NCBI GenBank assembly: GCA_023384455.1
Contig: JAHDWH010000020.1
Span: 5,403-44,197, forward strand
DNA length: 38,795 bases
Origin: Caldilineaceae bacterium
GTDB taxonomy: Bacteria; Chloroflexota; Anaerolineae; Caldilineales; Caldilineaceae
Direction of reading: 5' to 3'
Shown: positions 6,739 to 38,795 of the stretch, piece by piece
How positions within the stretch are numbered: position 1 is the stretch's first letter
Layout of the letters: every line of letters begins with the position of its first letter
The notes under the pieces: generated by a model
Told to the model about the DNA's origin: nothing
Seen by the model: only the letters and a program-made list of their open reading frames with translations
Database searches by the model: none
Program-made: the position numbers and the translations under genes

Positions 6739-6782
6739 TTCTTTCCAGTATCTCTCCACTTACTCCTGGAGTATCTTGCGGT

Positions 6783-6883
6783 GTACCTGCTCACCCCCTC
6801 CCAACCTCCCCCACTGTGGGGGAGGAGTCGCTCCGGTTCCCTCCCTGGAATGGAGGGGTAGGGCGGGGTGGCTCAACAGTTAC
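6783..6883. mobile_element. Miniature inverted-repeat element, copy A, with 8-bp target duplication
   Basis: A 101-base non-coding element. Left end GTACCTGCTCA and right end TCAACAGTTAC are imperfect terminal inverted repeats. It is flanked on both sides by the perfect direct repeat CTTGCGGT (6775-6782 and 6884-6891), as expected from transposition with an 8-bp stagger. The core contains the palindrome CTCCCCCACTGTGGGGGAG. The same core occurs in copy B (23401-23502) and copy C (38741 onward). The GTAA-like tips plus 8-bp duplication match IS66-family transposition. It lies in the 6516-7012 gap between the importer operon and the esterase-like gene. Confidence 0.85.
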
Positions 6884-7012
6884 CTTGCGGTTGACCTCCT
6901 CCGCCTGCAATTCCAGCACAGGCGCGCCGTCCTGATCCATCCAGACACCGCAGACACCGCCCGTAACGATTATATTTTCTGTTTGCACTGTACATCTGTC
7001 AATCATCACACC

Positions 7013-8038
7013 TCACCCTAGCCCGCGTAAGGTCAGTTCTTCTGCTAAATGACAGGTGACAAAGTGGTTCGGCAACACCTCGCGCATAGCTGGCTCGTCT
7101 GTCTTGCAGATTTCTTGGGCAAAGCGGCAGCGGGGGTGAAAGTAGCAGCCAGAGGGGGGATTGGCTGAGTTCGCTACGTCGCCGGCGAGCAAAATGCGCT
7201 GGCTGCGGGCCTGTGGATCGGGTTTGGGGACTGCGGAAATCAGTGCTTCAGTATACGGATGCAGCGGGTGCTGGAATAGCTCCTGGGTGGCCGCTACTTC
7301 AACGATCTTGCCTACGTACATCACGGCCACCCGGTTGCTGATGTGCTGAACTACGCTCAGATCGTGCGAGATGAAGAGATAGGTCAATCCAAACTGCTGC
7401 TGTAAGTTGGTGAGGAGGTTCAGGACCTGCGCCTGGATCGATACGTCCAGGGCGGAGACCGGTTCGTCACAAACGACCATCTTCGGTGCCAACGCCAGGG
7501 CGCGGGCGATGCCGATCCGTTGTCGTTGACCACCGCTGAAAGCGTGGGGGTAACGGCGCATGTGATGACTCTGCAGCCCGACCGCTTTCAGAAGGTAGAT
7601 CACCCGATCTTCGAGTTCGCTGCCCGCATAGACCTTGTGAATGCGCAATGGTTCGCTGACAATATCGAAGACGCTCATGCGCGGATCTAAGGAGGAGTAG
7701 GGGTCCTGGAAGATGATCTGGACCTGACGCCGGTAGAGTTTGAGTTGTGCTGCGTCCAATTGCGCCACCGACAGCGCATCCTGCTCCCCATCTCGAAAGA
7801 GGATCTCGCCGCTGGTCGGCTCAACCAGCCGGATCAGGCAACGGCCCGCCGTTGTCTTCCCGCAGCCGCTCTCCCCCACCAGCCCGACTGTTTCGCCCGG
7901 CTGAATGCTGAAGCTCACGCCATCGACCGCGCGCACATGCCCTACCGTGCGTTTGAGCAGACCACGCCGGATGGGATAGTGTTTCTTGAGATCGCGTATC
8001 TCGATCAAAGGCTGTTGGATGGTCTGCTGATCGGTCAC
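7013..8038 (-). CDS. Oligopeptide/oligosaccharide-type ABC importer ATPase (OppF/DppF-like)
   Basis: A 341-residue ATP-binding subunit. Walker [10 protein letters not shown] lies at 55-63, the ABC signature FSGGQ at 167-171 and Walker B MVVCDE at 187-192, with the D-loop SALD after it. The C-terminal oligopeptide-transporter extension contains four cysteines in a CxxxxxC-type arrangement ([15 protein letters not shown]...C), as in Opp/Dpp ATPases. The start codon is GTG at 8038 and overlaps the stop of the upstream ATPase gene by four bases (GTGA), implying translational coupling. It energises uptake together with the partner ATPase at the inner face of the membrane. It is the last gene of the five-gene importer operon. 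Confidence 0.95.
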
Positions 8039-9069
8039 AACGCACTTTCCTTTTCAGTGTACAGATAACAACGAACCGTGTGCTGCGGCCCCACCACCAC
8101 CGGCGGAGGGTCCACTACGTTGCATATACCGGGCATAAAGCGGGGACAGCGCGGCCCAAACGCGCAGCCCTTGGGGATAGCAAACGGTTCAGGCACGACT
8201 CCCCGAATCGGTTCCAATTGCTTCTTGCTGCCGATGCGCGGAATAGAATTCAGTAACCCCTGCGTATAGGGATGCTTCGGCTCATAGAAGATCGTGTTGA
8301 CATCGGCCTGCTCGACGACTTTGCCCATATACATCACGGCCACATCGTCGGCCACCTCGGCGATCACCCCCAGGTTGTGCGTAATGTGCATGATGGCCAT
8401 GCCCATATCGTCCTGCAATTTCTCCATCAGCTCCAGAATCTGGGCCGCAGTCGTAACGTCGAGCGCGGTCGTCGGCTCATCGGCGATCAACAGGCTGGGG
8501 TGACAGGAGAGCGCGAGCGCGATCATAGCGCGCTGCATCATTCCGCCGCTAAGCTGGTGCGGATAGCTATCCAGTGTGCGGCTGGGTTGGGGCATACCCA
8601 CGAGATCGAGCATTTCGATGGCGCGTTTGCGCGCTTCCTGCTTGTTTACCTGTTGGTGCAGAGTGATCGCCTCCATGATCTGCGCGCCGATCGTATAGGC
8701 CGGCGTCAGGGAGGTCATCGGTTCCTGGAAAATCATGGCGATCTCGTTGCCGCGGATTTTGCGTATCTCTGACCCCATCGGCGGCAAGCGGGTCAAATCG
8801 ATGGCCTCGCCCGTCGTCCAGCGGTGGAAGACGATCTGCCCTCCCACCACTTTGCCTGGTGGATTGGGTACCAACCCCAGCATAGCCAGGGCGGTCACGC
8901 TCTTACCGCAGCCGCTCTCACCGACGACGCCCAGGGTTTTGCCCCGCTTGACCTCCAAGCTGACGCCGTTGACCGCCGGGACGACCCCATCCATGAGGTG
9001 AAACTGGATCACCAAGTCCTTGACTTCGAGCAGTCGATTCTCTTGCAATGGTGCGGGAGCTGCTGACAT
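8035..9069 (-). CDS. Oligopeptide/oligosaccharide-type ABC importer ATPase (OppD/DppD-like)
   Basis: A 344-residue ATP-binding subunit. Walker A GESGCGKS is at 50-57, signature LSGGM at 173-177 and Walker B LLIADE at 193-198. The C terminus carries the oligo_HPY-type extension ([16 protein letters not shown]...C). It forms a heterodimer with the downstream OppF-like ATPase. The gene lies 12 bases after the second permease gene and overlaps oppF-like by four bases. The start ATG has a modest GAGAAG ribosome site. The substrate is set by the binding protein. Confidence 0.95.
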
Positions 9070-9081
9070 GTTCTTCTCTCA

Positions 9082-10269
9082 TCACTTCGAATATGGATCC
9101 ACGGCGTCGCGCAGGCCATCGCCCAGGAAGTTGAAGCCCAGCACTGCAACAATGACCAACACAGCAGGCATGATCAACCAGGGATAGAAGATAATCGTCC
9201 TCACGTTCTGTGCTTCCTCCAGGAGTACCCCCCAACTGGTCATCGGCGCACGGATGCCCAGACCGAGAAAGCTCAAGGCGGTCTCACCCAGGATCATGTA
9301 AGGGATGGAAAGGGTGGCGACCACGATGATGTGGCTGCCATTGTTGGGGATCAAATGCCGGCTGATGATCCACCAGTCGCTGGCCCCCGCAGCGCGGGCG
9401 GCCAACGTATATCCTTCCTCGCGCAGGGCCAGCGTCTTGCCGCGCACCTGGCGGGCCAGGCCACCCCAGTTCAGAAGGGAGAGGATGATGGTGATACCGA
9501 AATATACCCGGATTGCGGACCACGTCACCGGTAGAATGGCCGCCAATGCCATCCAGAGCGGAATCTGGGGAATCGAGATCAGCAGCTCCGAAAAGCGCTG
9601 CATCAGGTCATCGACGAGGCCGCCGTAGTAGCCGGAAATCACACCCAACACGGAGCCGAGGATGATCCCAATAAAAACGCCCAGCAGCCCCACGGAGAGG
9701 GAAATGCGTGCGCCAAAGAGCGTGCGCGAGAACATATCCCGTCCCTGGCGATCAGAGCCGAGCAAGAAAATGGGTACCTCTGGATCGACGCCGAAGAGAT
9801 GGCGATCCGTCGGGATGAGACCCCAGAATTTGTAGGGAACCCCTTTCCCAAAGAAGTGAATCGGATACATCACCGTCGGGTCGGGTTCGTAGCTCATCTC
9901 CAGTGTTTCGCGGTTGATGGTGCGAATCTGCTTGTAGATAAACGGACGGAGATGAAACTGACCTGCACTGTCTATAAAATGGGGGAGAGTCGGTGGGGCG
10001 TAGATATTCTCGGTAAAGCGTGTATCTAGCTGGTACGGCGAGATGAACTCACAAAAGATCGCGCTCAGATACATAAGCAGCAACAGAATGCCGCCGATCA
10101 TAGCTGGTCGGCTGCGCTTGAAGCGACGCCAGATCAATTGCCATTGGCTGAGGCTGGCCCACTCTTCTGGGGGGACATCTACAGCGGCCGCGCCCCGATA
10201 GATTTCCTCTAGCTCCGCATCGCCCGCTGCTCCCTGCTCCGCAATATCAGATCGGGTTGGTTGTGTCAT
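9082..10269 (-). CDS. ABC importer permease, OppC/DppC-like, with long extracytoplasmic insert
   Basis: A 395-residue membrane permease. TM1 is near residues 56-78. An insert of about 85 residues follows (roughly 83-170, including GKGVPYKFWGLIPTD and HLFGVD) before the conserved LLGSDRQGRDMFSR motif. Five more TM segments follow. The EAA loop (AARAAGASDWWIISRHLIPN) contacts the ATPases. The long insert is absent from E. coli OppC, but is known in permeases of this class from sugar-using bacteria; this supports, without proving, an oligosaccharide substrate. It lies 149 bases downstream of the first permease gene. Confidence 0.93.
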   Translation of the reverse strand: MTQPTRSDIAEQGAAGDAELEEIYRGAAAVDVPPEEWASLSQWQLIWRRFKRSRPAMIGGILLLLMYLSAIFCEFISPYQLDTRFTENIYAPPTLPHFIDSAGQFHLRPFIYKQIRTINRETLEMSYEPDPTVMYPIHFFGKGVPYKFWGLIPTDRHLFGVDPEVPIFLLGSDRQGRDMFSRTLFGARISLSVGLLGVFIGIILGSVLGVISGYYGGLVDDLMQRFSELLISIPQIPLWMALAAILPVTWSAIRVYFGITIILSLLNWGGLARQVRGKTLALREEGYTLAARAAGASDWWIISRHLIPNNGSHIIVVATLSIPYMILGETALSFLGLGIRAPMTSWGVLLEEAQNVRTIIFYPWLIMPAVLVIVAVLGFNFLGDGLRDAVDPYSK

Positions 10270-10418
10270 ACCTGTGCTTGACCTTTGACTTGAAAGCAGT
10301 AAGACAGTGAATCAGCAAGAGAGAGAGAGTCAGTCACTGTCCACTGACGCACTGTCTTGCTCTTCCACTGGCAACCATTGGTTTGTGTACGCCCGGATGT
10401 CAACTTATGTACCCGCAT

Positions 10419-11402
10419 TCATTCATACGTGATGCGCGGGTCTACCCAGGCCAGGGCGATGTCGGCCAGGAAGTTACCGATAATCAAGAAGAGGCTGAGC
10501 AGCATCAGAAAACTGCCAGCAAGGTACATGTCCTGGGTACGCAGAGCGCGATAGAGCAGCGGCCCGGTGGTGGGTAGGCTGAGTACGATGGAGATGATGA
10601 TGGAGCCGGAGATGATCGAGGGGAACTGCAAACCGATCAGGCTGATTAAGGGATTGATCGCCATGCGCACGGCGTGCTTCCAGATCACCACGCGCTCCGC
10701 CAGCCCGCGCCCACGGGCCGAAAGTACATACTGCTGGTTGAGAACGTCGAGCAGATTGCCGCGCATAATACGCACCAACTCAGCGGTGCCGGACATTCCG
10801 ATCAAGAGGACAGGCACCCACAGGTGTTTGAACAGGTCCACCACCTTGGCAAAGCTCCAGGGCATGGTTTCCATGCCGGGCGAGAAGAGGCCGCTGATGG
10901 GAAACTTGAAGACATAGACCGAGATGACCATCAGGATCAGGGCGAGCAGAAAACCCGGGGTCGCCAGACCGATAAAGCTGATAAATGTGAAGAACTGGTC
11001 ACCCGTCGAATATTGGTGGGTGGCCGAATAGACCCCGATGGGTATCGCGATCACCCAGGAAAGCAGCAACGTCACGACGGAGATGATGACGGTCAGGAGG
11101 AGGCTATCGCCGATCAGTTCGCTGACCGGGCGATTGTAGGCAAAGGATTCGCCGAAGTCACCGACTGCGAAATGGCTGACCCATAGCCAGTACTGCACGT
11201 AGATCGGATCGTCCAGGCCGTAGCGCTCCCGCAATCCCTTGAGCTGCAATTCGGCGTTCTGGCTGCCCTGCCGCTCCAGATCAGCCGCCAATGTGGTCAG
11301 ATAATCGCCGGGAGGCAGAGAAATGATGGTGAAGACGACTATGGAAATCACAATCATAAGGGGAATCGTGTGCAACAGACGTCGAATAATAAAATTGATC
11401 AT
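10419..11402 (-). CDS. ABC importer permease, OppB/DppB-like
   Basis: A 327-residue permease. It opens with the family-typical MINFIIRRLLHTIPLMIVIS first TM, then the extracytoplasmic LRERYGLDDPIYVQYWLW segment and GDFGESF. About five further TM segments follow, with the EAA-type loop SARGRGLAERVVIWKHAVR. The start at 11402 is chosen because every OppB-like protein begins this way; the open frame continues upstream through repeat-like DNA. It pairs with the OppC-like protein to form the channel. The 296-base gap upstream to the binding-protein gene contains a hairpin that could tune expression. Confidence 0.94.
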   Translation of the reverse strand: MINFIIRRLLHTIPLMIVISIVVFTIISLPPGDYLTTLAADLERQGSQNAELQLKGLRERYGLDDPIYVQYWLWVSHFAVGDFGESFAYNRPVSELIGDSLLLTVIISVVTLLLSWVIAIPIGVYSATHQYSTGDQFFTFISFIGLATPGFLLALILMVISVYVFKFPISGLFSPGMETMPWSFAKVVDLFKHLWVPVLLIGMSGTAELVRIMRGNLLDVLNQQYVLSARGRGLAERVVIWKHAVRMAINPLISLIGLQFPSIISGSIIISIVLSLPTTGPLLYRALRTQDMYLAGSFLMLLSLFLIIGNFLADIALAWVDPRITYE

Positions 11403-11489
11403 GCCGGTTCTCGGAAGATGTGAGAGGTGTGACTTGGGAAACGTGCAACTACCTCGACAACAGCAGACTAGCGTTGGTTGAGCGGTGTC

Positions 11490-11555
11490 CTGAGCCTGTC
11501 GAAGGGTAGACTGGTGCTGTTTCCAGCCGTATCGCTTGTACTGAGCCTGTCGAAG
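11490..11555. repeat. Two copies of a CTGAGCCTGTCGAAG dispersed word
   Basis: The identical 15-mer CTGAGCCTGTCGAAG occurs at 11490-11504 and 11541-11555, same orientation, 51 bases apart. This word (reverse complement CTTCGACAGGCTCAG) is a widespread intergenic repeat in bacterial genomes. It lies between the binding-protein and permease genes. Confidence 0.7.
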
Positions 11556-11586
11556 TGAAACCAAGCGGGTCATGCCGATATTTGCA

Positions 11587-11651
11587 CCTTCCGGGAAGGG
11601 GTCACAAGCCGACTGCACGTGTGCCGTTCTGTTTGACCCCTTCCCGGAAGG
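11587..11651. repeat. 18-bp perfect inverted repeat downstream of the binding-protein gene
   Basis: Arms 11587-11604 (CCTTCCGGGAAGGGGTCA) and 11634-11651 are exact reverse complements around a 29-base loop. Each arm is itself nearly palindromic. It starts 48 bases after the binding-protein stop in the direction of transcription. Hairpins at this place in importer operons commonly stabilise the binding-protein mRNA or attenuate the permease genes; that role is inferred. A relative with the same loop length lies at 14956-15016. Confidence 0.75.
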
Positions 11652-11698
11652 GTGGGAAGGTATTGCTTGACAAGCCCTACCAGTTTAGACGCTTGCCC

Positions 11699-13690
11699 CT
11701 ATTCGTAGAAATAGAGCGGCGGGTTGGTGCAGCCCGGCGCGCCCTGGGCCCACGAGCCGGTGAAGGCGAAATCGGGGATGTTGCGCAGGTTGGGGCGAGA
11801 GACCACCAGGTTGGGGATGTCGTTGACCGCCCCCAGGAAGAACGGCCCTTCGGTGACGTGGATATTGACCGCTTCCAGCACCCACTTGTTCTGTTCCTCT
11901 TCGGTCGTCGCCGCCAGCATACTGTTGTACATCCCGATCATACGATCCATCGGATCGCCCGCATCGGGCTGGATGCCATCCTTGCCCTGGGTGTTGAACC
12001 AGCGCGCCGTAAGCGGCGTGCCCCAGTAGGCGCTGCCGATGGGGAAGAGGGTATCGGGGATGGACGGAATGTCGTAGCCGGTCCAGGCATCCCAGCCGGC
12101 GATATCGTACTCGCCGTTGCTGAACTTGGGCCAGAAGGCTGCCCAGTCCATACTGTTGATCACGGCCTCGATGCCGATCTGTTTCCACCCCTCGGTTACA
12201 AACTCGAGTACATCCACGGCACGGCTGTCCGGAGAGCTGCCGGTGATAACGACCCAGGAGAGGCGCTTGCCATCCGGGCGCAGACGGAAGCCTTCGCTAT
12301 CGCGCTCGGTGAGGCCCACCTTGTCCAGCAGCGCGTTGGCCTGGTCGATGTCGTACTCGATGGCCAGGTTGCGCCAATCCTCCATCAGTTTCTTGCCCTC
12401 GTCGGTGGTGCGACCCCAGGGCGAATAGGGGCTGGTCACAGCCTGGCTGGCTGTACCCAATCCGAAGTAGACGACATCGTTGATGGTCTTGCGATCGATG
12501 GCGTGGGAGAGCGCCATGCGGAAGTCGCGGTTGCGAATCAGCGTGCGCAGCACAGTGTCCGGGTTGTCCCAGTTGGGCACGATGGCGGGATCGGCACCAG
12601 CCCCTACTTTCCATTGGATGACGCGGTAGTTGCCCTGATCTTCCGAAGTTTTGAGGGTGGTGAAGCTGTCCAGCGGGATACTGCGCGCCAGGAAGTCCAC
12701 CTCGCCCCCCACGATCTTGAGCGGAACGACCCGTGGGTCTTCCACCTGGTTGATGACGGTGCGATCGATGTAGGGCAACTGCTTACCGTCGGAGTCGACC
12801 TTCCAGTAATAGGGGTTACGCTCGGCCACCAGCTTCTGGCCCGGTGTGTACTCGACTGTACGCCAGGGTGTCAACACCGGCAGGTCCGGATTCGTGTACA
12901 TATTGCCGGTGGGCGGGAAGTTCTTGGGCAGCTCGCTGAAATCTGTCAGCGCGGTATTGTATTTCGGATGGAACTGCTGCAGGTAGTGCTTGGGCGCATA
13001 CATCCGCCTATAGTCGCCAGTGCTGGCCATCAGCTTGTGGAAGAGCCAATGGGGAGCGTTGAACGACACCTTCACCGTGAAATCGTCCACCACCTCCAGG
13101 CGCATAGGCTTCTCGGCCGTGATCGTCCAGTACGGCTGGGTGTAGCCGGCCTCCTCGGTCATTACCAGGTCGTTCCACCAGAAGTCGATGTCCGCCGAAG
13201 TAAATGGCTCGCCATCCGACCACCGGACCCCCTCGCGGAAGGAGAGCGTCATGCTCAGGCCGTCCGCCGCATACTCGTGTCCAATCGCCAGGTTGGTGTC
13301 CACAGTGCTGGCATCGGGGCTCCAGCGATAGGGAGCTTCGTAGAGAAACTGGAATTCATATGCCCCCAGGTCGGGGCCGACATTAAGTTGAACCATTTGG
13401 CCGTCGCTGTATTGACCAACTTTGTCAAAGGGAGTCAGCACGACTGGATCTTTGGGCAGGCGCTCTTCGAGAGGTGGCAACTTGCCTTCTGCTACCAACT
13501 GGCGCAGCATAGGCGCTTCCTTCTCGTTGCCGACAGGAGCAGAAGCGGGAGCGGGAGCAGCTTCTTGCGCAGCGGGGGCCGGAGCGGGGGCGGCTGGTGC
13601 TGCTGGTGTACAAGCAGCCAGGGCCAAGCCAGCACTACCCAGGACAGTACCCTTCAAAAAACCACGGCGTGTCAATCGTTTGGTACTCAT
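11699..13690 (-). CDS. Extracytoplasmic solute-binding protein, family 5 (OppA/DppA-like), Tat lipoprotein
   Basis: A 663-residue binding protein that captures substrate for the downstream permeases and ATPases. The N terminus MSTKRLTRRGFLKGTVLG carries a twin-arginine motif (TRRGFLK). A lipobox LALAAC follows, then a flexible Pro/Ala-rich linker, so it is probably Tat-exported and lipid-anchored. SBP_bac_5 features include LSFREGVRWSDGEPFTSADI and FRMALSHAIDRKTIND. It is longer than E. coli OppA, like the oligosaccharide-binding members known from Thermotoga. The start at 13690 has AGAGGAG upstream. Divergent from the DeoR-type gene, which probably controls it. Substrate not determinable from sequence. 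Confidence 0.94.
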   Translation of the reverse strand: MSTKRLTRRGFLKGTVLGSAGLALAACTPAAPAAPAPAPAAQEAAPAPASAPVGNEKEAPMLRQLVAEGKLPPLEERLPKDPVVLTPFDKVGQYSDGQMVQLNVGPDLGAYEFQFLYEAPYRWSPDASTVDTNLAIGHEYAADGLSMTLSFREGVRWSDGEPFTSADIDFWWNDLVMTEEAGYTQPYWTITAEKPMRLEVVDDFTVKVSFNAPHWLFHKLMASTGDYRRMYAPKHYLQQFHPKYNTALTDFSELPKNFPPTGNMYTNPDLPVLTPWRTVEYTPGQKLVAERNPYYWKVDSDGKQLPYIDRTVINQVEDPRVVPLKIVGGEVDFLARSIPLDSFTTLKTSEDQGNYRVIQWKVGAGADPAIVPNWDNPDTVLRTLIRNRDFRMALSHAIDRKTINDVVYFGLGTASQAVTSPYSPWGRTTDEGKKLMEDWRNLAIEYDIDQANALLDKVGLTERDSEGFRLRPDGKRLSWVVITGSSPDSRAVDVLEFVTEGWKQIGIEAVINSMDWAAFWPKFSNGEYDIAGWDAWTGYDIPSIPDTLFPIGSAYWGTPLTARWFNTQGKDGIQPDAGDPMDRMIGMYNSMLAATTEEEQNKWVLEAVNIHVTEGPFFLGAVNDIPNLVVSRPNLRNIPDFAFTGSWAQGAPGCTNPPLYFYE

Positions 13691-13780
13691 GCGTCTCCTC
13701 TTTCGAAAAATGAAGGTGGAATACAAATCTAGGATAGCCGGATCGGGCCAGATGTCGTGTGGCGGAAAGCGTCTCCTTTC

Positions 13781-13926: not shown

Positions 13927-14000
13927 TCTCCGCATTTGTGGAGGAAGCGCCGACAACGTTTCGTGGATAGCTTTATTCTGTGGAATAGTTTAGCACACAC

Positions 14001-14029: not shown

Positions 14030-14138
14030 TATGGATAATCACCACATTAATATAAACTCTACTATATCCCAATAATGAAGTCAAATGACGAAAAAGCATC
14101 TATCGTGTCTGTTTGAAACAAACATAGTTGGTGGTACT

Positions 14139-15016: not shown

Positions 15017-15048
15017 ATTGCCATACGTTATTTAATCATCCATTTCTA

Positions 15049-15171
15049 GTAACTACTCAGCCAACGACAGAAATAACCACTGAATACACAGAATACGCGG
15101 AAGTTCTGCGCTTTTTTCAGTGTGTTCCGTGTTTTCCGTGGTTAATAAGCAGAGGATGCCTGAGCAGTTAC
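15049..15171. mobile_element. Diverged miniature element, copy D
   Basis: The ends GTAACTACTCAG (15049-15060) and CTGAGCAGTTAC (15160-15171) form 12-bp terminal inverted repeats with one mismatch. These ends match those of copies A-C. The interior differs: it is an imperfect palindrome of AACCACtGAAtACAC / GTGTTTTCCGTGGTT type. Direct repeats ATTTCTAG flank it (15042-15049 and 15173-15180), the right one offset by one base. It fills most of the 287-base gap between the DeoR-type and M24-like genes. Confidence 0.7.
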
Positions 15172-15211
15172 TATTTCTAGCCAATTTATCTGAAGACAAA
15201 GGGGAACGGTT

Positions 15212-16624: not shown

Positions 16625-16630
16625 TAGCGT

Positions 16631-23114: not shown

Positions 23115-23149
23115 GGGGAATTTCGCCCTGAGTGGTACGATGAAAATCA

Positions 23150-23226
23150 GAACGCAGATTACACAGATTCCGCAAATTTTATCCGTGTGAATCCGTTCTT
23201 TCCGTGTTCATCCGTGTTCTATTTTT
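23150..23226. repeat. Dispersed ACGCAGATTACACAGATT repeat
   Basis: GAACGCAGATTACACAGATT, then ATTTTATCCGTGTGAATCCG and GTGTTCATCCGTGTTC, form an imperfect palindrome. It is closely related to 6656-6738. Located in the 23115-23570 gap, upstream of the membrane-protein gene. Confidence 0.65.
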
Positions 23227-23347
23227 AGAGCATTCGCCAGCCCTTGCGCGCTACGCTAACACAGGGTGAATGGGAAGCCAAATCCCGGACCGTTCACAAA
23301 ATTGGCAATTCATACGCTCATCGGGTAAAATCGTTCGGTGCATTTGA

Positions 23348-23361: not shown

Positions 23362-23400
23362 GGCGGGAAGGGCGCGAGCCATTCAGATGTCAAAACAGAC

Positions 23401-23502
23401 GTAGCTGCTCACCCCCATCCAATCTCCCCCACTGTGGGGGAGGAGTCGATCCAGTTTCCCCCTAGACTGGGGAGGGGTAGGGTCGGGTGGCTGAACAGTT
23501 AC
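23401..23502. mobile_element. Miniature inverted-repeat element, copy B, with 8-bp target duplication
   Basis: A 102-base relative of copy A. Ends are GTAGCTGCTCA and TGAACAGTTAC, with the same CTCCCCCACTGTGGGGGAG core. It is bounded on both sides by the perfect direct repeat AAACAGAC (23393-23400 and 23503-23510). No open frame. It lies between the operator-like palindrome at 23348-23361 and glgP. Confidence 0.88.
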
Positions 23503-23570
23503 AAACAGACTATCCGCGCAGGTCGCTCCAGGTGGATTGACCTGCGCCGTTCTTTTGCTTTGGAGGTTCT

Positions 23571-30989: not shown

Positions 30990-32072
30990 ATGAGTACCCC
31001 CACTATCGATCTGCGCTCGGACACCGTAACCCGCCCAACCCCGGCAATGCTGGAAGCTATGGCAAAGGCCCCCGTGGGCGATGACGTCTACGGCGAGGAC
31101 CCGACTGTCAACCGGCTGGAGGCTATCACCGCGCAGATGCTGGGCAAGGAGGCCGCGGTCTTTGTGTCCAGCGGCACAATGGGCAATCTGATTTCGGTGC
31201 TGGCCCACTGTGGCCGGGGCGATGAGGTGATTCTGGGCGATCTGGCCCACATCTTCCTCTACGAGCAGGGCGGCTCGGCGGCGCTGGGCGGTGTCCATCC
31301 CCGCGCTGTGCCCACCCAGCCCGACGGCACCCTCAAACTGACCGACATTGAAAACGCCATCCGCGGCGACAACGAACACTTTCCCATCAGCCGCCTGCTG
31401 GCCGTGGAGAACACCCACAACCGCTGTGGAGGACGCCCGCTCTCGGCAGAGTATATGGACGCGGCCGGCCAGTTGGCCCACCGCCACGGGCTGAAATTTC
31501 ACGTGGACGGTGCGCGGCTGTGGAACGCGGCCGTAGCGCTAAATATCTCCCCGGAGCGGCTGGCCAAAGAGGCCGACAGTGTGAGCCTCTGCCTGAGCAA
31601 AGGGCTGGGCGCGCCGGTGGGTTCGGTGGTGGTGGGTGACAAGGAATTTATCCGCAAGGCGCGGCGGATGCGCAAGGCAGTGGGGGGCGGGATGCGCCAG
31701 GCCGGGGTGATTGCGGCCGCGGGGATTGTGGCAGTGACAGAGATGGTAGAGCGACTGGCCGACGATCACGCCAACGCCCGCCGTCTGGCCGAGGGGCTGA
31801 ACCGGCTGGAGGGAATTTCCATCGACCCGGAGAGTGTCCTGACGGATATTGTCATCTTCGATTTGGAACGGGAAGACATCACCCCGGCCAACCTTTCGGC
31901 GGGGCTACGCGGCCACGGGGTGCTGCTCAACCCCATCGGCGGCAAGCGGCTGCGGGCTGTCACTAATTATCACATCAGCGAAGCCGACATCGACCGCACC
32001 CTGGGGGCTTTCGCCGCGGTGCTGGAGGCTGGAGAAAAGGCGACGGACCAGCGGGTGATGACCTACGGATAG
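30990..32072 (+). CDS. ltaE: Low-specificity L-threonine aldolase
   Basis: A 360-residue PLP enzyme cleaving threonine or allo-threonine to glycine and acetaldehyde. The N terminus [19 protein letters not shown] and [16 protein letters not shown] are diagnostic. [13 protein letters not shown] and [15 protein letters not shown] (cofactor Asp) follow. The Schiff-base lysine is in [11 protein letters not shown], near residue 204. Length is usual for the family. It starts 34 bases after the kinase stop with AAAGGC ahead of the ATG, so it may be co-transcribed with the kinase although no functional link is obvious. Convergent with dinB, three bases apart. Cytoplasmic. Confidence 0.95.
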
Positions 32073-32075
32073 CCG

Positions 32076-33263
32076 TCAATCCAGCGCGCTGGCCCGGCGC
32101 ACCGCGTCCTGACCGAAGCGTTTGCGCAGGGCCTGCACCGCATCGTTGAGCCGTTCGGCTTTGGCCTGCTCTGCCGGGTGCGCGGGCAGCTCCCAGATGC
32201 TCATCTGGTGGACGAGGGGGCCAAGACCGCTGACACCCACACCGATCAGACGCACGGGCTGGCCGGGTGGCCGGTTGTCGGCCAGAAGTTGCAGGGCCAG
32301 CCGTGCAATCTCCTGGCTGCTGCTGATGGGCTGTTCCCCGGTACTTTGCCTGGTCAGGGTGGTGAAATCGGGCCAGCGCAGCTTTAGGGTCACCGTGCGG
32401 GCTGCCAACTTCTCGCGTGCCAGGCGGTGGGCCACCTGCCCGGCCTGTTCGGTGACAACCCGGGCCAGCGTCTGGCCGTCCGCCAGGTCTGTGGCAAAGG
32501 TGGTTTCCTGGCTGATGGATTTCGCCTCCCGCTCGGTAACGATCTCCCGCGGGTCGATGCCCTGGGCCCGGCGGTGCAGATCGTTGCCATTCTTGCCGAA
32601 GCGCCGGGCCAGCTCGCTGGCGGGAAAGCGGGCAATGTCGCCGATGGTATGAATGCCCAGTTCGGCCAGCTTCTCCGCGGTTTTTGGCCCTACACCCCAG
32701 AGCGCGTCCACGGGCAAGGGGGCCAGAAAAGCCGCTTCCTGGCCCGGCGGCACAACCTGAATGGAGCGGGGATAGTCACCGCTGCGTACGGCGGCTTTGC
32801 CCACGTCTGTGGCGATCTTTGCCACCAATTTGTTGGTGGCCACACCCAGAGAAGCGGGCAGACCCAAGGCATCCCGCACCCGGGACTGAAGTGTGCGGGC
32901 CATCTCCTCTGGGGGCTGAGAGTGGCTGCTCACATCCAAAAAGGCTTCGTCAACGGATAGCTGTTCCACCAGAGGTGTCAGTTCGTGGAGGATCGCCATC
33001 ACCTGGGCCGAGACCCGGCTGTACTCCCCCATATGGGAATCGACGATGAGTAGCTCCGGGCAGAGGCGCACTGCCTGGCTCATAGGCATAGCCGAGCGCA
33101 CCCCCTTCATCCGGGCGGGATAGGAGCAGGAAGCCACAACCCCCCGCTGGTCTGGCCGTCCGCCGACGGCAAAGGGCAGACCAGCCAGCGCGGGGTTGCT
33201 CTTTTCCTCCACCGCACAGAAGAAGGCGTCCAGATCGAAGTGGAGAATTTTGCGAATGTTCAC
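32076..33263 (-). CDS. dinB: DNA polymerase IV (Y-family translesion polymerase)
   Basis: A 395-residue Y-family polymerase performing error-prone bypass synthesis. Catalytic acidic residues are D10 in FDLDAFFCAVEE and D105/E106 in SVDEAFLDVS. The SYPARMKGVRSAMP fingers segment and the helix-hairpin-helix regions (LPVDALWGVGPKTAEKLAELGI) are present. The little-finger domain extends to the end. No obvious QLxLF clamp-binding peptide is visible at the C terminus. The start codon is GTG at 33263. An extended -10 promoter (TGGTATAAT) lies upstream. No GAAC-N4-GTTC box is seen near it. Confidence 0.95.
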   Translation of the reverse strand: MNIRKILHFDLDAFFCAVEEKSNPALAGLPFAVGGRPDQRGVVASCSYPARMKGVRSAMPMSQAVRLCPELLIVDSHMGEYSRVSAQVMAILHELTPLVEQLSVDEAFLDVSSHSQPPEEMARTLQSRVRDALGLPASLGVATNKLVAKIATDVGKAAVRSGDYPRSIQVVPPGQEAAFLAPLPVDALWGVGPKTAEKLAELGIHTIGDIARFPASELARRFGKNGNDLHRRAQGIDPREIVTEREAKSISQETTFATDLADGQTLARVVTEQAGQVAHRLAREKLAARTVTLKLRWPDFTTLTRQSTGEQPISSSQEIARLALQLLADNRPPGQPVRLIGVGVSGLGPLVHQMSIWELPAHPAEQAKAERLNDAVQALRKRFGQDAVRRASALD

Positions 33264-33310
33264 GGGAGTCTTTGGAAGGTATACAAAAGAGAGGCCGGCT
33301 ATTTAAGGCT

Positions 33311-33319
33311 ATTATACCA
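33311..33319 (-). promoter_or_regulatory. Extended -10 element of dinB
   Basis: On the minus strand TGGTATAAT is a perfect -10 (33311-33316) with the TGn extension. No good -35 is present, as is common for extended -10 promoters. The leader would be about 40 bases. Confidence 0.5.
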
Positions 33320-33432
33320 CAGGCTGTATGGGGCTGGTCTTTCCCTGGCCTTTGGCTGTACAATCATAGGCGCGCATGGAGCGAGGCAGCAAACCGGAAG
33401 CCCGCCCTGCGTTCCACCACCCCGAGGAATTT

Positions 33433-34590
33433 ATGCGTCTGCACCGCCAAACGATTCTCGGCCTCACGGGCTATCTCTGCATCGGCACAGCTTCTGTGCT
33501 GATCCCCTCGATTATGCCCTCCATCACCTCCGAATATCAGGCAGCCGGTCTCTCTCTGGCCGCCATCGGGCTGATCTTCCCGGCCCGGGCCCTGGGAAGC
33601 ATCGCGGGCAATCTGCTGGCCGGGGTCGGGTCGGACAGGCTGGGCTATGGCCGGATGGTCTGGCTGGCCGCGCTGCTGCTGGCTGGCTCCCTGGCCCTGG
33701 CGGGGATCGCCCATCCCTGGCTGCTCTTTCTGGCCGCCTTTGTGGTCATCAGCGCCACCCAGGGAGCCCTGGGCACAGGCATCAACGCCCTGACCGCGGA
33801 CGCCAATCCCGATGGGCGGGCCAGGGCGCTGAATACCCTGCACGGGGTCTATGGCATCGGCGCGGCCGTCTCGCCGCTGATCTTTGGCTATCTGTTGCAA
33901 GAAGGGGTGGCCTGGCGCTGGATGCTGGGGGGCACGGCCCTGCTCTGGCTGCTCTACGGGCTGGTCTCTTTCCTGCTTCAATCCAGCCCCACCCCCCAAC
34001 GGGAGCGCCGCCCGGCCCAACTCCTCGACCTGTCGATGCTGGCTTCTGCGCCCTTTCTGGCCCTCTTTGCCATCGCCTTTATCTACAACGGCGTGGCCTA
34101 CAGTCTGCTGGGCTGGGTGGCGCTCTTTATGCAGGAATCCGCGGGCTTCTCCGCCTTCTTCTCGATTTCCCTCATATCCATCTTCTATGTGGCCTTGACC
34201 GCGGGCCGCTTTGTCTGCGCCGCCATCAGCGAACGGGTGGGCTATGGGGCTACGCTGCTGGGGCTGGCTGTGGGCATCACCGCCACCTATCCGCTGGTGG
34301 TGTTGAGCAGCAGTGGGCTGTGGGTGGCCCTGGGCATCTTCCTCACCGGGCTGAGTCTTTCCGGTCTCTTTCCTACGGCCCTGGCCTACGGCAGCCGCCT
34401 CTACCCCACCCGGTCCGGCGCGGTGGCGGGCACGCTCAATGTCTCGATGACTCTGGGCGCGATGATTCCGCCGGTATGGACGGGGGTCATCGCCGAGTGG
34501 TGGAGCTTTCAGGCCGCGCTGGGGGTGAATTATGTGATGGTGATGGGGCTGCTGGGGGTGACGATTTATCTGTATGGGATGGACAAATGA
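33433..34590 (+). CDS. Major facilitator superfamily transporter
   Basis: A 385-residue transporter with about 12 predicted TM helices. The loop between TM2 and TM3 carries the MFS motif-A-like GNLLAGVGSDRLGYGRM, and the second half repeats it loosely (GRFVCAAISERVGYGA). Proximity to the SDR gene and overall resemblance to sugar/fucose-permease-like MFS proteins suggest a small organic solute, but the substrate is not readable. The start at 33433 (MRLHRQTILG) has GAGGAA a few bases upstream and is preferred over the ATG at 33376. The stop codon lies inside the arm of a long inverted repeat. Confidence 0.9.
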   Translation: MRLHRQTILGLTGYLCIGTASVLIPSIMPSITSEYQAAGLSLAAIGLIFPARALGSIAGNLLAGVGSDRLGYGRMVWLAALLLAGSLALAGIAHPWLLFLAAFVVISATQGALGTGINALTADANPDGRARALNTLHGVYGIGAAVSPLIFGYLLQEGVAWRWMLGGTALLWLLYGLVSFLLQSSPTPQRERRPAQLLDLSMLASAPFLALFAIAFIYNGVAYSLLGWVALFMQESAGFSAFFSISLISIFYVALTAGRFVCAAISERVGYGATLLGLAVGITATYPLVVLSSSGLWVALGIFLTGLSLSGLFPTALAYGSRLYPTRSGAVAGTLNVSMTLGAMIPPVWTGVIAEWWSFQAALGVNYVMVMGLLGVTIYLYGMDK

Positions 34591-34703
34591 CCGCGAATGG
34601 GAGGATTACGCGAATAGATGCCGTGTAGGGACGTTGCCGAATGTCCCTACAACCAGCCGAATGTCCCTACAACCATTCGCGTAATCCTCTTATTCGCGGT
34701 CAT
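34587..34703. repeat. Long inverted repeat (29-base arms) overlapping the MFS stop codon
   Basis: Arms 34587-34615 (beginning ATGACCGCGAAT) and 34675-34703 are reverse complements with two mismatches. The loop contains two tandem 20-base copies of GCCGAATGTCCCTACAACCA (34636-34655 and 34656-34675) and a small hairpin GTAGGGAC/GTCCCTAC (34625-34632, 34643-34650). The TGA stop of the MFS gene is part of the left arm. It fills the MFS-SDR gap. Confidence 0.88.
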
Positions 34704-34738
34704 CTGTCCGCCGTCCAATCCACCCAAAGGAGAATCCG

Positions 34739-35545
34739 ATGAACGACCCAATTGTAAACGCCCAACCCATCCTCGACCGCTTCCGGTTGGATGGCCGGGT
34801 GGCGCTGGTGACAGGCGCAGGCCAGGGGATTGGCCGGGGCTTTGCCCACGCCCTGGGCGAGGCCGGCGCGCGGGTGGCGGTGGCGGATTTGGTATTGAGC
34901 CGGACCGAGACGGTGGCCCAGGAGTTGACTGGGAAGGGGATCGACGCCATCGCTCTGCAAACTGACGTGACCGACGAGGCGCAGGTGGCCCGAATGGTGG
35001 CGCGGGTGGTGGAGCACTGGGGCGGGCTGACGATTGGGGTGAACAATGCGGGGATGGGGCTGTGGATGGACGCGGAGACGATGCCCCTGGCCGACTGGCG
35101 GCGGGTGATGGCGCTCAATCTGGACGGGGTATTTCTCTGCGCCCAGGCCCAAGCTCGGGTGATGCTGGCCGCGGGTTATGGAAAAATTATCAATACGGCT
35201 TCGATGTCGGGCACGATTGTCAATACGCCCCAGAATCAGGCGGCCTACAACACCTCCAAAGTCGGGGTAATCCATCTGACCAAAAGTCTGGCCGCGGAGT
35301 GGGCGACCCGGGGGGTGCGGGTCAACTGCATCAGCCCCGGCTACACCCGCACCGCGCTGGTGGACGATCTGCTGGCGACGCCGGAGGGACAGGCTATCCT
35401 ACCCCGCTGGATGGAACTGACACCCACCGGGCGGATGGTGGAGGTGGGGGAATTGCAGGGGGCCGTCGTCTATCTGGCCGCGCCGGCATCGGATGGGATG
35501 ACGGGGCACGATCTGGTGGTGGATGGGGGGTATACGTTGTGGTGA
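34739..35545 (+). CDS. Short-chain dehydrogenase/reductase (SDR)
   Basis: A 268-residue classical SDR. The cofactor motif TGAGQGIG is at 25-32, NNAG at 102-105 and the catalytic Ser155, Tyr170 and Lys174 (YxxxK) are intact. Asp50 at the end of strand 2 (VAVADL) favours NAD(H). [12 protein letters not shown] and the C-terminal [13 protein letters not shown] are typical of sugar/polyol or gluconate-type dehydrogenases; the exact substrate is unknown. AAAGGAG precedes the ATG. It follows the MFS gene, so transport and oxidation of the same compound is a reasonable inference. Confidence 0.93.
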
Positions 35546-35549
35546 GGGA

Positions 35550-35708
35550 TCAGTCCCAAATACATTCGACGATACCTGCTTGACGGATTGTTGCATCACG
35601 GGTGATCAGTGGTACGCCAAATGTGTGGGCTGCGGCCACAATGATACGATCGTGCATTTCTGAGACAGCAGTCACGGCAACCATTGCCCGCGCTTCGCCC
35701 AAGCCGAA
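35550..35708 (-). pseudogene. C-terminal remnant of a VapC-like PIN-domain toxin
   Basis: About 52 codons on the minus strand read FGLGEARAMVAVTAVSEMHD and then RIIVAAAHTFGVPLITRDAT, ending IVECIWD and a stop at 35550. The MHDRIIVAxA...PLITRDxxI pattern is the C-terminal third of VapC-type PIN toxins. The N-terminal part with the first catalytic acidic residues is absent. The fragment follows, in the same reading frame and without any gap, the stop codon of the antitoxin-like gene. Hence an internal deletion removed the start of the toxin. Not expected to be active. Confidence 0.82.
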
Positions 35709-35981
35709 TCAATCATAACCCGAATTCTCATTCAGTTCCTGGGCAAGACGCTCGAACTTACGTGCGGATTCGTTTCGAATCTCTGAAATCGCCTCCGTCA
35801 CCCAATCACCTGTATCATCAGGCCGCAATGCGTGTTTCCAGATACCCTTTAAGGAAAGAATCAGACGGGTAGATGGTGGGGCAGACCGAATCACTTCGAG
35901 CTGAACCTCCTCGCCTTCGCGCAACTGAATAGGGATGCTCGGCTTAAAAACGCCTTCCTGGAAGACTGCGCTGATTGTCAT
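35709..35981 (-). CDS. DUF104-type antitoxin family protein
   Basis: A 90-residue protein. The N terminus MTISAVFQEGVFKPSIPIQLREGEEVQLEV is the signature of the small AF2212-like/DUF104 antitoxin family, whose genes usually precede a PIN-domain toxin gene. The C-terminal half (DWVTEAISEIRNESARKFE) is helical and would be the toxin-binding tail. The start at 35981 has GGAGCG ahead; an ATG 12 codons upstream is not used in family members. The toxin gene is reduced to a C-terminal fragment, so this is an orphan antitoxin, and its last few residues may be altered by the deletion. Confidence 0.82.
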   Translation of the reverse strand: MTISAVFQEGVFKPSIPIQLREGEEVQLEVIRSAPPSTRLILSLKGIWKHALRPDDTGDWVTEAISEIRNESARKFERLAQELNENSGYD

Positions 35982-36006
35982 TGTTCGCTCCTTTTGGCAC
36001 AATGAT

Positions 36007-36047
36007 TTGAGGGCCACAGGGCGAGTATATCACCCTGTGGCCCTCAA
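36007..36047. terminator. Strong hairpin after the NIPSNAP gene
   Basis: TTGAGGGCCACAGGG (36007-36021) pairs perfectly over 15 bases with 36033-36047 around an 11-base loop. It begins 10 bases past the NIPSNAP stop on the minus strand. No T-run follows (ATCATT), so it may stabilise the 3' end rather than terminate by itself. Confidence 0.6.
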
Positions 36048-36057
36048 GACAATCCAT

Positions 36058-36378
36058 TTACTGCAAAACCGACTTGGCCGTCGGATTCAGACGCATGACC
36101 TGAATTGTCTCCCGGTTGATCATCGATGGGTTGCGCGGGGCGAGGGTATTCTTCCAGTGATCCGACTGGTAGACGGCTTCGTAGAGACGCACCCGCTCGG
36201 CCTCGTCCACAAAGCGGCGCATCCAGACGTAGCGGTTGGGGTCCTGTTCGTCCACAAAAGAGCCGACAATTACCATCCCTTTGGCGACCTGAAAGGGGAT
36301 GATCTCCTCCTCCATATACTGCACCCAGGCATCCCGCTGGCCGGGGTGACATTCGTAAATTCGCAATTCGTAGAGCAT
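36058..36378 (-). CDS. NIPSNAP-family protein
   Basis: A 106-residue protein with the ferredoxin-like NIPSNAP/dimeric alpha-beta-barrel fold. Features are MLYELRIYECHPGQRDAWVQY at the start, then GSFVDEQDPNRYVWMRRFVD and a short C-terminal strand. Bacterial members are small cytoplasmic proteins of largely unknown role. AGGAGT precedes the ATG. It follows the 118-residue hypothetical gene by 9 bases, forming a two-gene unit that ends in the hairpin at 36007-36047. Confidence 0.85.
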   Translation of the reverse strand: MLYELRIYECHPGQRDAWVQYMEEEIIPFQVAKGMVIVGSFVDEQDPNRYVWMRRFVDEAERVRLYEAVYQSDHWKNTLAPRNPSMINRETIQVMRLNPTAKSVLQ

Positions 36379-36387
36379 TGTTTACTC

Positions 36388-36747
36388 CTATATGATATGT
36401 GTGGCACCCCGATAGAGATGTCTGGCATGGCGCACCAATCGTTCCCGATCTTCGTCTTTCATCTGAATATCACCCGTGCGAGCGTCTACAACCACGCATC
36501 CGATCTGCCCCAAATCGCCCAGCAATGGCAGGGACAAGGAAACGGGCACACGCCAGCCGATCTCCTCGCCCGTCACTGCCAACTCAGGCGTCCGGGCAAT
36601 CAGTCCTGTGCCCAGATTCGGTACAATCTGCCGGTTGACCGCTACCCGCGCATCCTCCCCGCTAATGCGCAGCATTGCTTCCAAGTGAAGATGCAGCAAA
36701 AGAGATGATTCATCTGTATGTTCAGAGGGTAGCACAACGGACTGCAT
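36388..36747 (-). CDS. Hypothetical protein (119 residues), partner of the NIPSNAP gene
   Basis: Not recognised. A small soluble alpha/beta-looking protein. The N terminus is MQSVVLPSEHTDESSLLLHL. It continues with ARVAVNRQIVPNLGTGL, then VPVSLSLPLLGDLGQIGCVV and VDARTGDIQMKDEDRERLV, and ends RHLYRGATHII. The start at 36747 is chosen for GGAGAAAGG just upstream; a longer frame (start 36786) would run into the palindromic repeat. Tight spacing with the NIPSNAP gene suggests joint function. The VDxxTGDI strand-turn could be a small ligand-binding fold, but this is a guess. Confidence 0.68.
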   Translation of the reverse strand: MQSVVLPSEHTDESSLLLHLHLEAMLRISGEDARVAVNRQIVPNLGTGLIARTPELAVTGEEIGWRVPVSLSLPLLGDLGQIGCVVVDARTGDIQMKDEDRERLVRHARHLYRGATHII

Positions 36748-36780
36748 AGCCTTTCTCCATTTCTCTCCCTTTGAAAAAAG

Positions 36781-36881
36781 GGACACGGATTTGCACAGAT
36801 GGAACAGATTTTCACGGATTTGGATTTCGCTTTCGCCTCATTATCCGTGCAAATCCCTCCTATCCGTGTAAATCCGTGTCC
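36781..36881. repeat. Palindromic GGACACGGATTT repeat after the GH4 gene
   Basis: GGACACGGATTTGCACAGAT (36781-36800) and TATCCGTGTAAATCCGTGTC (36861-36880) are imperfect reverse complements. Internal CGGATT/AATCC words pair further in. It starts 7 bases past the GH4 stop and belongs to the CGGATTT/ACGCAGATT repeat class. It may act as a 3' hairpin between the GH4 gene and the next operon. Confidence 0.7.
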
Positions 36882-36887
36882 GTTTGT

Positions 36888-38246
36888 TTACGCCAACAAG
36901 TGCATAGGCCGGTCGCCTTCCACCTCAAAGTGGCGGAAGGTGGGCAGATAGTCCCGGTTCATCGCCAACATTTCGTTCACCATCTCCCGAATCTCGGCCA
37001 TTGTCAGCACCGCCGACGAGAGCGGGTCGTGGAGGATGGCCTGGAAGATTTTGCGGGGATCGCCTTCCAGAATACCTTCCACCGCCATCTCCTCCAGTTG
37101 GGAAGTCAGACCGGTCAGCATCGCCACGGACGGGGGCAGGCTGCCCACCCGTACGGATTGCAGCCCATCCCGGCTGGCCCACACGGGAATCTCCACACAC
37201 GCGCCCTGGGGCAGGTTGTCCACCAGCCCGTTGTTGGGCATATTGCCGTTGAACTGGAAGGGCGTGCCCCCTTCCAGTCCGTTTATAATATAGGCGGCAT
37301 ACTCGTGTCCCCGCTCCAAATCCAGGGGAGCCGGGTCGTTGAGCCACTCGTTGATCTGCGTCTCCCAGGTGGCTTCCCGCTCGGCGTGGCGCTTGACCAC
37401 ATAGGCATACTCGCCGGGGTTCCAGCCTGTGCCGTGGGTGCAATACTTCTCGATCAGGTCGGGCCGCTTGCGAAACCAGGGGTTGTACTCCGAGTGGTGG
37501 CCGCTGGATTCGGTGGGGTAGTAGTCCAGGTGCAGGTAGAGTTCGTTGCGCACCTGCTCCTCGTTATAGACCTCGGCCCGCTCGGTGATGGCCTGGCGGA
37601 TCAGCGGATAGGCGTCCACGCCTTTCCACTTGTACTCCAAATACCAGGCCATATGGTTGATACCGGCGCAGGTGAAGGTGATCTCCTCCATCGGCGCGCC
37701 GATCCAGCGGGCCAGCATCTCGGCGGTGCCCTGCACGCTGTGGCAGAGACCGGTGGCGACGATCTTCGTCTGGCTCTGGATGGCCCGGCAGTTGAGCACC
37801 ATCGGATTGGTGTAGTTGAGCATCACCGCCTTGGGGCAGAGACGCTCCATATCCCGGGCGATGTCCAGCATCACCGGCACCGTGCGCATAGCGCGGAAGA
37901 TGCCAGACGGCCCCCGGGTGTCGCCGATGTTCGTGTCGATCCCGTACTTCATCGGGATTTCGATGTCGTGCCGCCAGATGTTCCCGGAACCGACGAGAAT
38001 CGTGACGATCACATAGTCCGCGCCGTCCAGGGCTTCCTCCCGGCTGGTCGTGCTGACCACTTTGGCGGGATACTTCCCCTCCGTCACAATGCGGTTGATG
38101 GCCTTTTCAATAAAGCCGAGCTTCTCCGGGTCGATGTCCATCAGACAGATGGTGGCATCGGCCAGGCTGGGAAAGGTGAGAACGTCGCGCACCAGCTTGC
38201 GGGTAAAGCCAAAACTGCCTGCGCCGATAAATGCGATTTTTGTCAT
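36888..38246 (-). CDS. Glycoside hydrolase family 4, alpha-galactosidase (MelA)-like
   Basis: A 452-residue NAD+- and Mn2+-dependent glycosidase that works by oxidation at C3 and elimination. The dinucleotide motif [10 protein letters not shown] lies at residues 6-15. [14 protein letters not shown] and the metal-binding Cys168/His169 in GLCHSVQG, with His198 in AGINHMAW, mark the alpha-galactosidase/alpha-galacturonidase-like branch. Length equals E. coli MelA. LplD-type galacturonidase is the main alternative. A modest AGAGAAA lies upstream of the ATG. It could use products of the ABC importer elsewhere in the window, but the genes are not adjacent. Confidence 0.92.
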
Positions 38247-38578
38247 TAGAATTTCTCTGCGTATGTGGGGAAATGGGACAAGAGATGAAAATCAGAATTC
38301 AGGCTGGAACGAGGATAGGGGGTACGACAATTGAAACGGGCAAAGCGCTAAGTACGTCCAGATACCACCACCAACCCCAGAAAAATAAAACGGGGGTCCG
38401 AAAGATATCCCTCCACATCAAAAGGCGGGAATGCTGTTTCCATTATGCCATCCAAACCAAACATAACCAACCACCGAACCCCTTCAAATTCACCGACAAT
38501 CGTCGGGTAAATTACAGGCTGGATTCTTTACAAGGGTAGCGATTCACATCCACTTTGTCAAATCGGATTTTTCTTTCG
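38247..38578. other. Intergenic gap upstream of the GH4 gene
   Basis: About 330 bases with no gene I can support on either strand. It should contain the GH4 promoter; I see no convincing -10/-35 pair on the minus strand. The base composition is more AT-rich than the flanking genes, as expected for a regulatory gap. Confidence 0.4.
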
Positions 38579-38607
38579 CTGACAGCCCCGGACGACTACT
38601 CTATACT
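38579..38607 (+). promoter_or_regulatory. Putative sigma-70 promoter reading off the right edge
   Basis: CTGACA (38579-38584) and TATACT (38602-38607) with exactly 17 bases between. The predicted transcript passes the inverted repeat at 38657-38719 and the miniature element, so the gene it serves would lie beyond the window. Confidence 0.4.
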
Positions 38608-38656
38608 GAGACAGATTCCACTTTTTGCAGACAGTAGATACCTACTCAGGTTTTTG

Positions 38657-38719
38657 GGTGCGACGCACTCGCCATACATTTTTTGCACGGGAATGTTCTC
38701 TTGGCGAGTGCGTCGTACC
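38657..38719. repeat. 18-bp inverted repeat GGTGCGACGCACTCGCCA
   Basis: Arms 38657-38674 and 38702-38719 are reverse complements with one mismatch, around a 27-base loop. Non-coding; possibly another dispersed palindromic repeat. It lies 21 bases before miniature element copy C. Confidence 0.75.
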
Positions 38720-38740
38720 TGTGCAGCAGCGACAGCAGAC

Positions 38741-38795
38741 GTAACTGCTCACCCCCTCCCAACCTCCCCCACTGTGGGGGAGGAGTCGCTCCACT
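38741..38795. mobile_element. Miniature inverted-repeat element, copy C (truncated by window end)
   Basis: Begins with the perfect terminal sequence GTAACTGCTCA and continues with the same CTCCCCCACTGTGGGGGAG core and GAGTCGCTCC as copy A. The element runs off the window. If it is a normal copy, the 8 bases to its left, CAGCAGAC (38733-38740), should recur after its right end. Confidence 0.8.

Follow-up and report, generated by a model that had tools for sequence, protein, structure and literature searches.

Miniature elements with IS66-type ends in a Caldilineaceae genome

A stretch of 38,795 nucleotides from a Caldilineaceae bacterium (GenBank assembly GCA_023384455.1, contig JAHDWH010000020.1, positions 5,403 to 44,197; hereafter the window) carries short repeats of about 90-125 bp that fall into three families with unrelated cores and share ends of the form GTAACT[GA][CT]TCA. 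Judged from their sequences, these are very probably aged families of miniature inverted-repeat transposable elements (MITEs) of the IS66 type, which would have been mobilised by an IS66-type transposase that is now dead or lies outside the assembly. MITEs have a size limit of about 600 bp. The elements are short and lack a transposase gene, they are bounded by terminal inverted repeats and by independent target duplications, and their ends resemble those that adjoin fragments of tnpC. GTAA-type tips and 8-bp duplications point to an IS66/ISBst12-like parent. Because no TnpC (DDE_Tnp_IS66) lies between the ends, we infer that the MITEs depend on IS66 rather than being members of it. The elements of the window and their duplications are listed below in window coordinates.

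6775..6782, + strand: left target duplication of copy A, 8 bp, CTTGCGGT, one of a perfect pair
6783..6883, + strand: copy A, family 1 MITE, 101 bp, ends GTACCTGCTCACCCC...GGTGGCTCAACAGTTAC
6884..6891, + strand: right target duplication of copy A, 8 bp, CTTGCGGT
15041..15048, + strand: left target duplication of element D, 8 bp, CATTTCTA
15049..15171, - strand: element D, family 2 MITE, 123 bp, ends of the same kind, core unrelated
15172..15179, + strand: right target duplication of element D, 8 bp, TATTTCTA, 7/8 match to the left one
23393..23400, + strand: left target duplication of copy B, 8 bp, AAACAGAC, one of a perfect pair
23401..23502, + strand: copy B, family 1 MITE, 102 bp
23503..23510, + strand: right target duplication of copy B, 8 bp, AAACAGAC
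38630..38637, + strand: left target duplication of element E, 8 bp, GACAGTAG
38638..38730, - strand: element E, family 3 MITE, 93 bp, decayed ends, hairpin GGTGCGACGCACTCGCCA / TGGCGAGTGCGTCGTACC
38731..38738, + strand: right target duplication of element E, GACAGCAG, 7/8 match, overlapping the left flank of copy C
38741..38795, + strand: copy C, family 1 MITE, first 55 bases, left flank CAGCAGAC

A preliminary description of the window had reported copies A and B with perfect 8-bp duplications, the start of a third copy at 38741, and the absence of the parent transposase from the window, all of which was confirmed. Elements D and E, both with 7/8 duplications, are additional to those three copies. 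Copy C is truncated, as the contig (C83, position 44197) stops at window position 38795, and it begins 2 bp past the duplication of element E. The family 3 hairpin at 38657-38719 was considered as a core without ends and was rejected as such, because it belongs to a complete though decayed element that has a duplication of its own. A separate repeat family, AACGCAGATTACACAGATT...ATCCGTGTTC, is represented at 23137-23250 and has many partial matches in five congeners; GTAAC ends were not seen in its window copy.

One kind of end around three cores

Family 1 elements are 103 bp long in 84 of 114 sampled cases (range 64-104), which is too short for a transposase gene, and their terminal inverted repeats, GTAACTGCTCA / GTAACTGTTCA, are imperfect and about 11 bp long, with a complementary core inside. 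A de novo scan for ends of the form GTA[AC]..[GT]TAC, 50-2600 bp apart and with one mismatch allowed in the flanking 8-bp duplication, was run over 145 sources from the same genome (416,715 bases). All 63 elements recovered belong to the three families (49 in family 1; 9, mostly of 123 bp, in family 2; 5, of 92-93 bp, in family 3), and the reversed-sequence control gave 0. The scan returned no element of at least 280 bp, from sources of mostly about 3 kb that a full insertion sequence (IS) could escape. The exact sequence GTAACTGYTCAGG is found at 29 sites in this genome (control 0), and the 20 loci that were read are all of families 2 or 3. Cores lacking both ends numbered 0/119, 0/13, and 0/12 for families 1-3 in a sample from the genome that was mostly picked by ends, and 7, 2, and 4 copies, respectively, had one end only. 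One family 2 copy (L201, 1522-1592, on contig C303) is interrupted by a 71-bp insert that has CTCT on either side and the ends TGCATCAT...ATGATGCA, perhaps another MITE family.

The family 1 consensus is predicted to fold as RNA into a long hairpin structure of -60.3 kcal/mol. Such a strong predicted fold, together with the location of copies outside long reading frames (below), is what would be seen if a regulatory RNA or terminator had been domesticated and its structure were under selection, but this origin is highly improbable. Compensatory changes were counted in 8 cells, where the shuffles gave 4.3 on average and 11 at most, with pairing of 93.9% in both, so there is no clear excess over the shuffles; an Rfam search of the window at the gathering threshold gave no match; and scarcity in genes is also expected from the loss of gene-breaking insertions. 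We read the hairpins as part of mobile DNA and not as selected RNA. In one copy (C6:310-412; L010 310-412), the loop of the second hairpin is inverted, reading CATTCCAGG instead of CCTGGAATG, an outcome expected from palindrome template switching.

Target-site duplications

Flanks were compared for 117 complete elements (114 of family 1 and 3 of family 2) taken from 122 sources in the genome, amounting to 347,658 bases with some overlap between sources; the sample was picked by left end, so decayed copies are under-represented. The 8-bp duplication is perfect in 59 of the 117, has 1 mismatch in 26 and 2 mismatches in 9, and differs at 3 or more positions in 23; for the family 1 elements alone the corresponding counts are 58, 24, 9, and 23. 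Thus, 85/117 elements overall and 82/114 of family 1 have at most 1 mismatch, and 94/117 and 91/114 have at most 2, whereas randomly paired flanks reach 0-1 mismatch in 0.15% of cases. Identity between the two flanks is 76-90% at the eight positions of the duplication and 14-44% at the twelve tested positions outside it. The duplicated sequences differ between sites, and any target preference is weak. Some of the 23 copies with poor duplications have a 7-base match or an apparent rearrangement. The preliminary description had proposed a non-autonomous family inserting independently with 8-bp duplications, and the genome-wide copies uphold this; its suggestion that each copy be tested for flanking repeats was borne out for the 94 copies with at most 2 mismatches and not for the remaining 23.

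Repetitive extragenic palindromic (REP) sequences and bacterial interspersed mosaic elements (BIMEs) are palindromic intergenic repeats without target duplications, and REP-type copying leaves no 8-bp duplications. It is extremely unlikely that the elements are REP-like palindromes copied by such a route, with the GTAAC ends simply part of the palindrome. The long consensus hairpin would suit this origin, as would those congener cores whose ends are not recognisable (neither end in 5 of 38, plus further core-only matches; see below), but the 8-bp duplications flank the ends precisely, which contradicts it for copies that have ends, and the ends are common to three unrelated cores.

Traces of tnpC and the IS66 elements of relatives

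When the source genome was searched with a TnpC from the same genus as query, a relict was found at C231:7751-8008 that matches the N-terminal part of tnpC (residues 17-102) at 44% identity with one stop and then meets GTAACTGCTTACCCC, which agrees with the family 1 left end at 14/15 bases. Its best TnpC matches are L323 and L324 (58%), followed by L081 (54%), an element with GTAACTGCTCA ends. A DNA search located a second piece, C197:131-184, in which 54 bp are 98% identical to the C231 relict; this piece lies behind GTAACTACTCAGGCAT, 15/16 to the family 2 left end, with a tnpC start 68 bp from the end. The two pieces are not joined to each other, and their end types are those of families 1 and 2. 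A second end was sought for both the C231 relict and the C197 piece and was not found. The 8-mer TCTGAAAG near the C231 relict was rejected as a duplication, as no end precedes it. A third, weak fragment at C139:24252-24350 comprises 33 residues of the TnpC C terminus and lies 260 bp from a family 3 element; no end could be assigned to the fragment itself.

Matches to the IS66 profile PF03050 occur in 45 of 150 genomes searched, the source genome being among the 150. A letter-free search for ends (perfect duplication, 11/16 inverted ends) at 30 IS66 loci resolved 10, of which 9 start with GT and 6 of these with GTAA; the tenth (L091, ends 912 bp apart) is probably a chance match. In a second search, the L081 TnpC was compared with 396 genomes of the class, 43 of which had a match. 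With the loci now numbering 60 (some being one site twice), a script that required GT at the tips resolved both ends of 13 different elements whose duplications have 0-1 mismatch; GTAA opens 9 of these (for example GTAACTACTCAGGT in L325 and GTAACTACTAAGCC in L080). L081 itself has GTAACTGCTCAGGCA at both ends, with flanks that agree in only 5/8 positions. In congener G005, the IS66 ends are GTGACTATTCAGGCTG, and a MITE copy has the ends GTGACTGTTCA/GTGACTATTCA with a perfect duplication. A 112-bp element with same-kind ends and a different hairpin core was also seen in another family of the class (L043, G064:C7, 1501-1612), where the flanks are GTGAATAG/GTGAATGG, and an IS66 piece in that genome (L097) has the end GTAACTGCTCAGG.

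Duplications of 8 bp are also made by IS256, ISL3, ISAs1, IS1595, and IS6. A MITE family of some such transposase, with ends that are IS66-like by chance, would be compatible with duplications that alone do not identify a family and with the failure to find an intact IS66 in the source assembly, but is very unlikely. The tnpC fragments of the genome adjoin ends of the same kind, the IS66 elements of relatives share such ends, and an IS256-type control (PF00872, 20 loci), which covers IS256 only, gave one end pair, CCCTGATCG, that is not GTAAC. The IS66-type character of the ends put forward in the preliminary description is thus backed by relatives with mostly GTAA tips and 8-bp duplications, by the end of ISDge4 (see below), and by the tnpC fragments; of the IS66 locus with matching ends that it called for, the genome gave such fragments and no intact copy was found.

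In the proposed route, an IS66 transposase would have recognised the ends, each about 11 bp long, made a staggered cut of 8 bp in the target, and placed the element there; copies within genes would then have been lost by selection, leaving those outside long frames, and the transposase source in the genome would be dead or outside the assembly. Related species carry the same core with another type of end pair, as expected if different IS66 transposases mobilise one core.

Several observations weigh against derivation from IS66 by transposition. Movement is deduced from sequence and was not observed, and 23 of 117 copies have at least 3 flank mismatches. No clean orthologous empty site was obtained in congeners for copy B or the tnpC relict: for copy B, genes of both sides are present but the intergenic DNA does not align, and for the relict, G001, G002, G005, and G006 conserve the downstream side, with no synteny upstream. 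Searches of the source assembly gave no intact IS66 transposase (0 matches to PF03050), and its tnpC consists of fragments only, two found by the TnpC query and one by DNA. The closest TnpCs, L323 and L324, have no resolved ends, and a common parent type of the C231 and C197 pieces depends on the 54 bp at 98%. Most of the 60 IS66 loci lack a resolved end pair, many being cut by contig ends, and the ends of intact IS66 elements in relatives are similar but not identical to those of the MITEs. Across the genus, the presence of IS66 does not correlate with MITE number.

Copy number, age, and placement of copies

The source assembly comprises 6.77 Mb in 448 contigs, with a completeness of 98.59% and a contamination of 6.11%. 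The left end of family 1, GTAACTGCTCACCCC, occurs in it at 501 sites with at most 2 mismatches, against 17 for a reversed control, and at 421 sites with at most 1 mismatch, against 0. By arithmetic from left ends, family 1 amounts to some 400-480 full or partial copies and takes up about 0.6-0.7% of the genome. In each of six congeners there are 0-11 left ends at 1 mismatch or fewer, partly chance matches; of the 7 genomes of the genus that were covered, the source species is thus the only one with the amplification. A pattern scan of a contig database, from which records of the source genome were possibly excluded, returned one record, JACQGT010000188.1 (a Chloroflexi groundwater metagenome-assembled genome), and this contig carries the same element copy as congener contig G002:C65. 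Among the matches listed, 18 of 100 exact left ends, counted by eye, lie less than 400 bp from a contig start, where about 3 are expected, and family 1 repeats therefore probably break metagenome assembly at their copies.

For 105 of the 117 elements (96-106 bp), aligned to a consensus of 103 bp, mean divergence from the consensus is 6.0%, pairwise divergence is 10.3%, and divergence from the nearest neighbour averages 4.9%; no pair is identical. Within the 94 duplications with 0-2 mismatches, 5.9% of sites differ between the two sides. On account of the divergence among copies and between duplications and the lack of an intact IS66 transposase in searches of the assembly, we read the amplification as aged rather than fresh. 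The preliminary description had called the family recently active, and this part of its interpretation is not supported; the non-autonomous family, the independent insertions, the IS66-type ends, and the position of the parent outside the window stand. Tandem copies with a duplication or a short spacer between them were noted at L039 (C346:6853-7165), L040 (C237), and L238 (G002:C641), and in the C346 tandem CCCGGTTG is the duplication lying between the copies, which suggests later local amplification after insertion.

The placement of copies was examined for 83 insertions with at most 2 mismatches in the duplication, with 500 bp of flank taken on each side and the flanks rejoined. A frame of at least 900 nt crosses the rejoined site in 2% of these insertions; for control points the figure is 54% (558 points from the same stretches) and 43% (1000 points in the window). 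Most copies are thus located away from long frames, which is what the loss of gene-breaking insertions would produce.

Matched end pairs across the genus

Family 1 cores were also compared across loci of six congeners, some of which had been picked by their match to GTAACTGCTCACCCC. Ends of 38 core copies (each with at least 80% of the core) were classed with up to 3 mismatches as type I (GTAACTGCTCA-like) or type II (GTAACTACCAA-like), the right side being compared with three spellings of type I and one of type II. Both ends are type I in 13 copies and type II in 10, with 1 mixed pair, 9 copies with one end, and 5 with neither. Left and right ends match (Fisher p 5.6e-6, a value that is overstated since copies within species are related), and for 16 of the 24 two-ended congener copies the duplication is perfect or has a single mismatch. 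Eight of the 10 type II pairs come from G003, and G004 holds both matched types. Copies with neither end were found in G001 (3 of 5) and G002 (2 of 3), which also have one copy with both type II ends and one with both type I ends, respectively. In G001, 9 of 13 consensus matches begin at base 9-11, just inside the end. The core-only copies of G001 and G002 may be REP/BIME-type repeats.

Because one core has type I pairs, type II pairs, or none, depending on the species, and because same-kind ends surround three unrelated cores in the source genome, it is conceivable, although we hold it as a tentative proposal only, that IS66-type end pairs are exchangeable modules that came to enclose dispersed hairpin repeats already present. 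In that case, MITEs would originate from the capture of intergenic repeats as well as from deletion of a parent element.

Comparison with known systems

The elements are ordinary in kind; what is noteworthy is their copy number, the presence in this genome of tnpC fragments whose ends match, and, on one core, matched end pairs that differ between species. Some 400 natural substrates show which end bases are kept, and two matched types of end pair on one core could show how the specificity of the transposase changes together with the ends. The MITE amplification seems to have outlasted all transposases recognised in the assembly. In the part of the open-licence literature searched, no MITE family was found to be assigned to IS66, which does not establish absence from print.

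The intact IS66 elements of the class (L081, L325, L079, L080, L083, L088, and others) have mostly GTAA-type ends, 8-bp duplications, and a single gene, their tnpC being related to the relict of the source genome. They differ from the MITEs in being about 1.45-1.65 kb long with a full tnpC, and the likeness is judged on the ends. Enterobacterial repetitive intergenic consensus (ERIC) sequences and Correia elements occur in other hosts and have other ends and parent families than the MITEs described here. Both are high-copy bacterial MITEs, with more than 120 copies for Correia and up to 711 for ERIC, in Photorhabdus (PMC10969869); because ERIC reaches that number, the copy number found here is high but not a record.

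A close likeness in ends is to ISDge4, of the ISBst12 group of IS66, which is reported to transpose in Deinococcus geothermalis and has terminal inverted repeats GTGACTACTCAGCA and GTAACTGCTCAGCA, an 8-bp repeat, CCTCGATG, and a 449-aa transposase (PMC12898284). The family 1 left end agrees with GTAACTGCTCAGCA at 11/11 bases, and the group of ISDge4 has a single transposase gene; ISDge4 is autonomous and from another phylum, whereas the MITEs here are non-autonomous. MITECca01 of Cardinium resembles family 1 in its lineage-specific amplification (169 copies, mostly intergenic) but is derived from IS982 and has an intact parent present (PMC9769881). QMITE2 of Coxiella burnetii, as described in PMC10969869, has end-less copies that resemble REPs, as do the end-less cores of the congeners; its host and core are different, and its loss of ends is described there as truncation.

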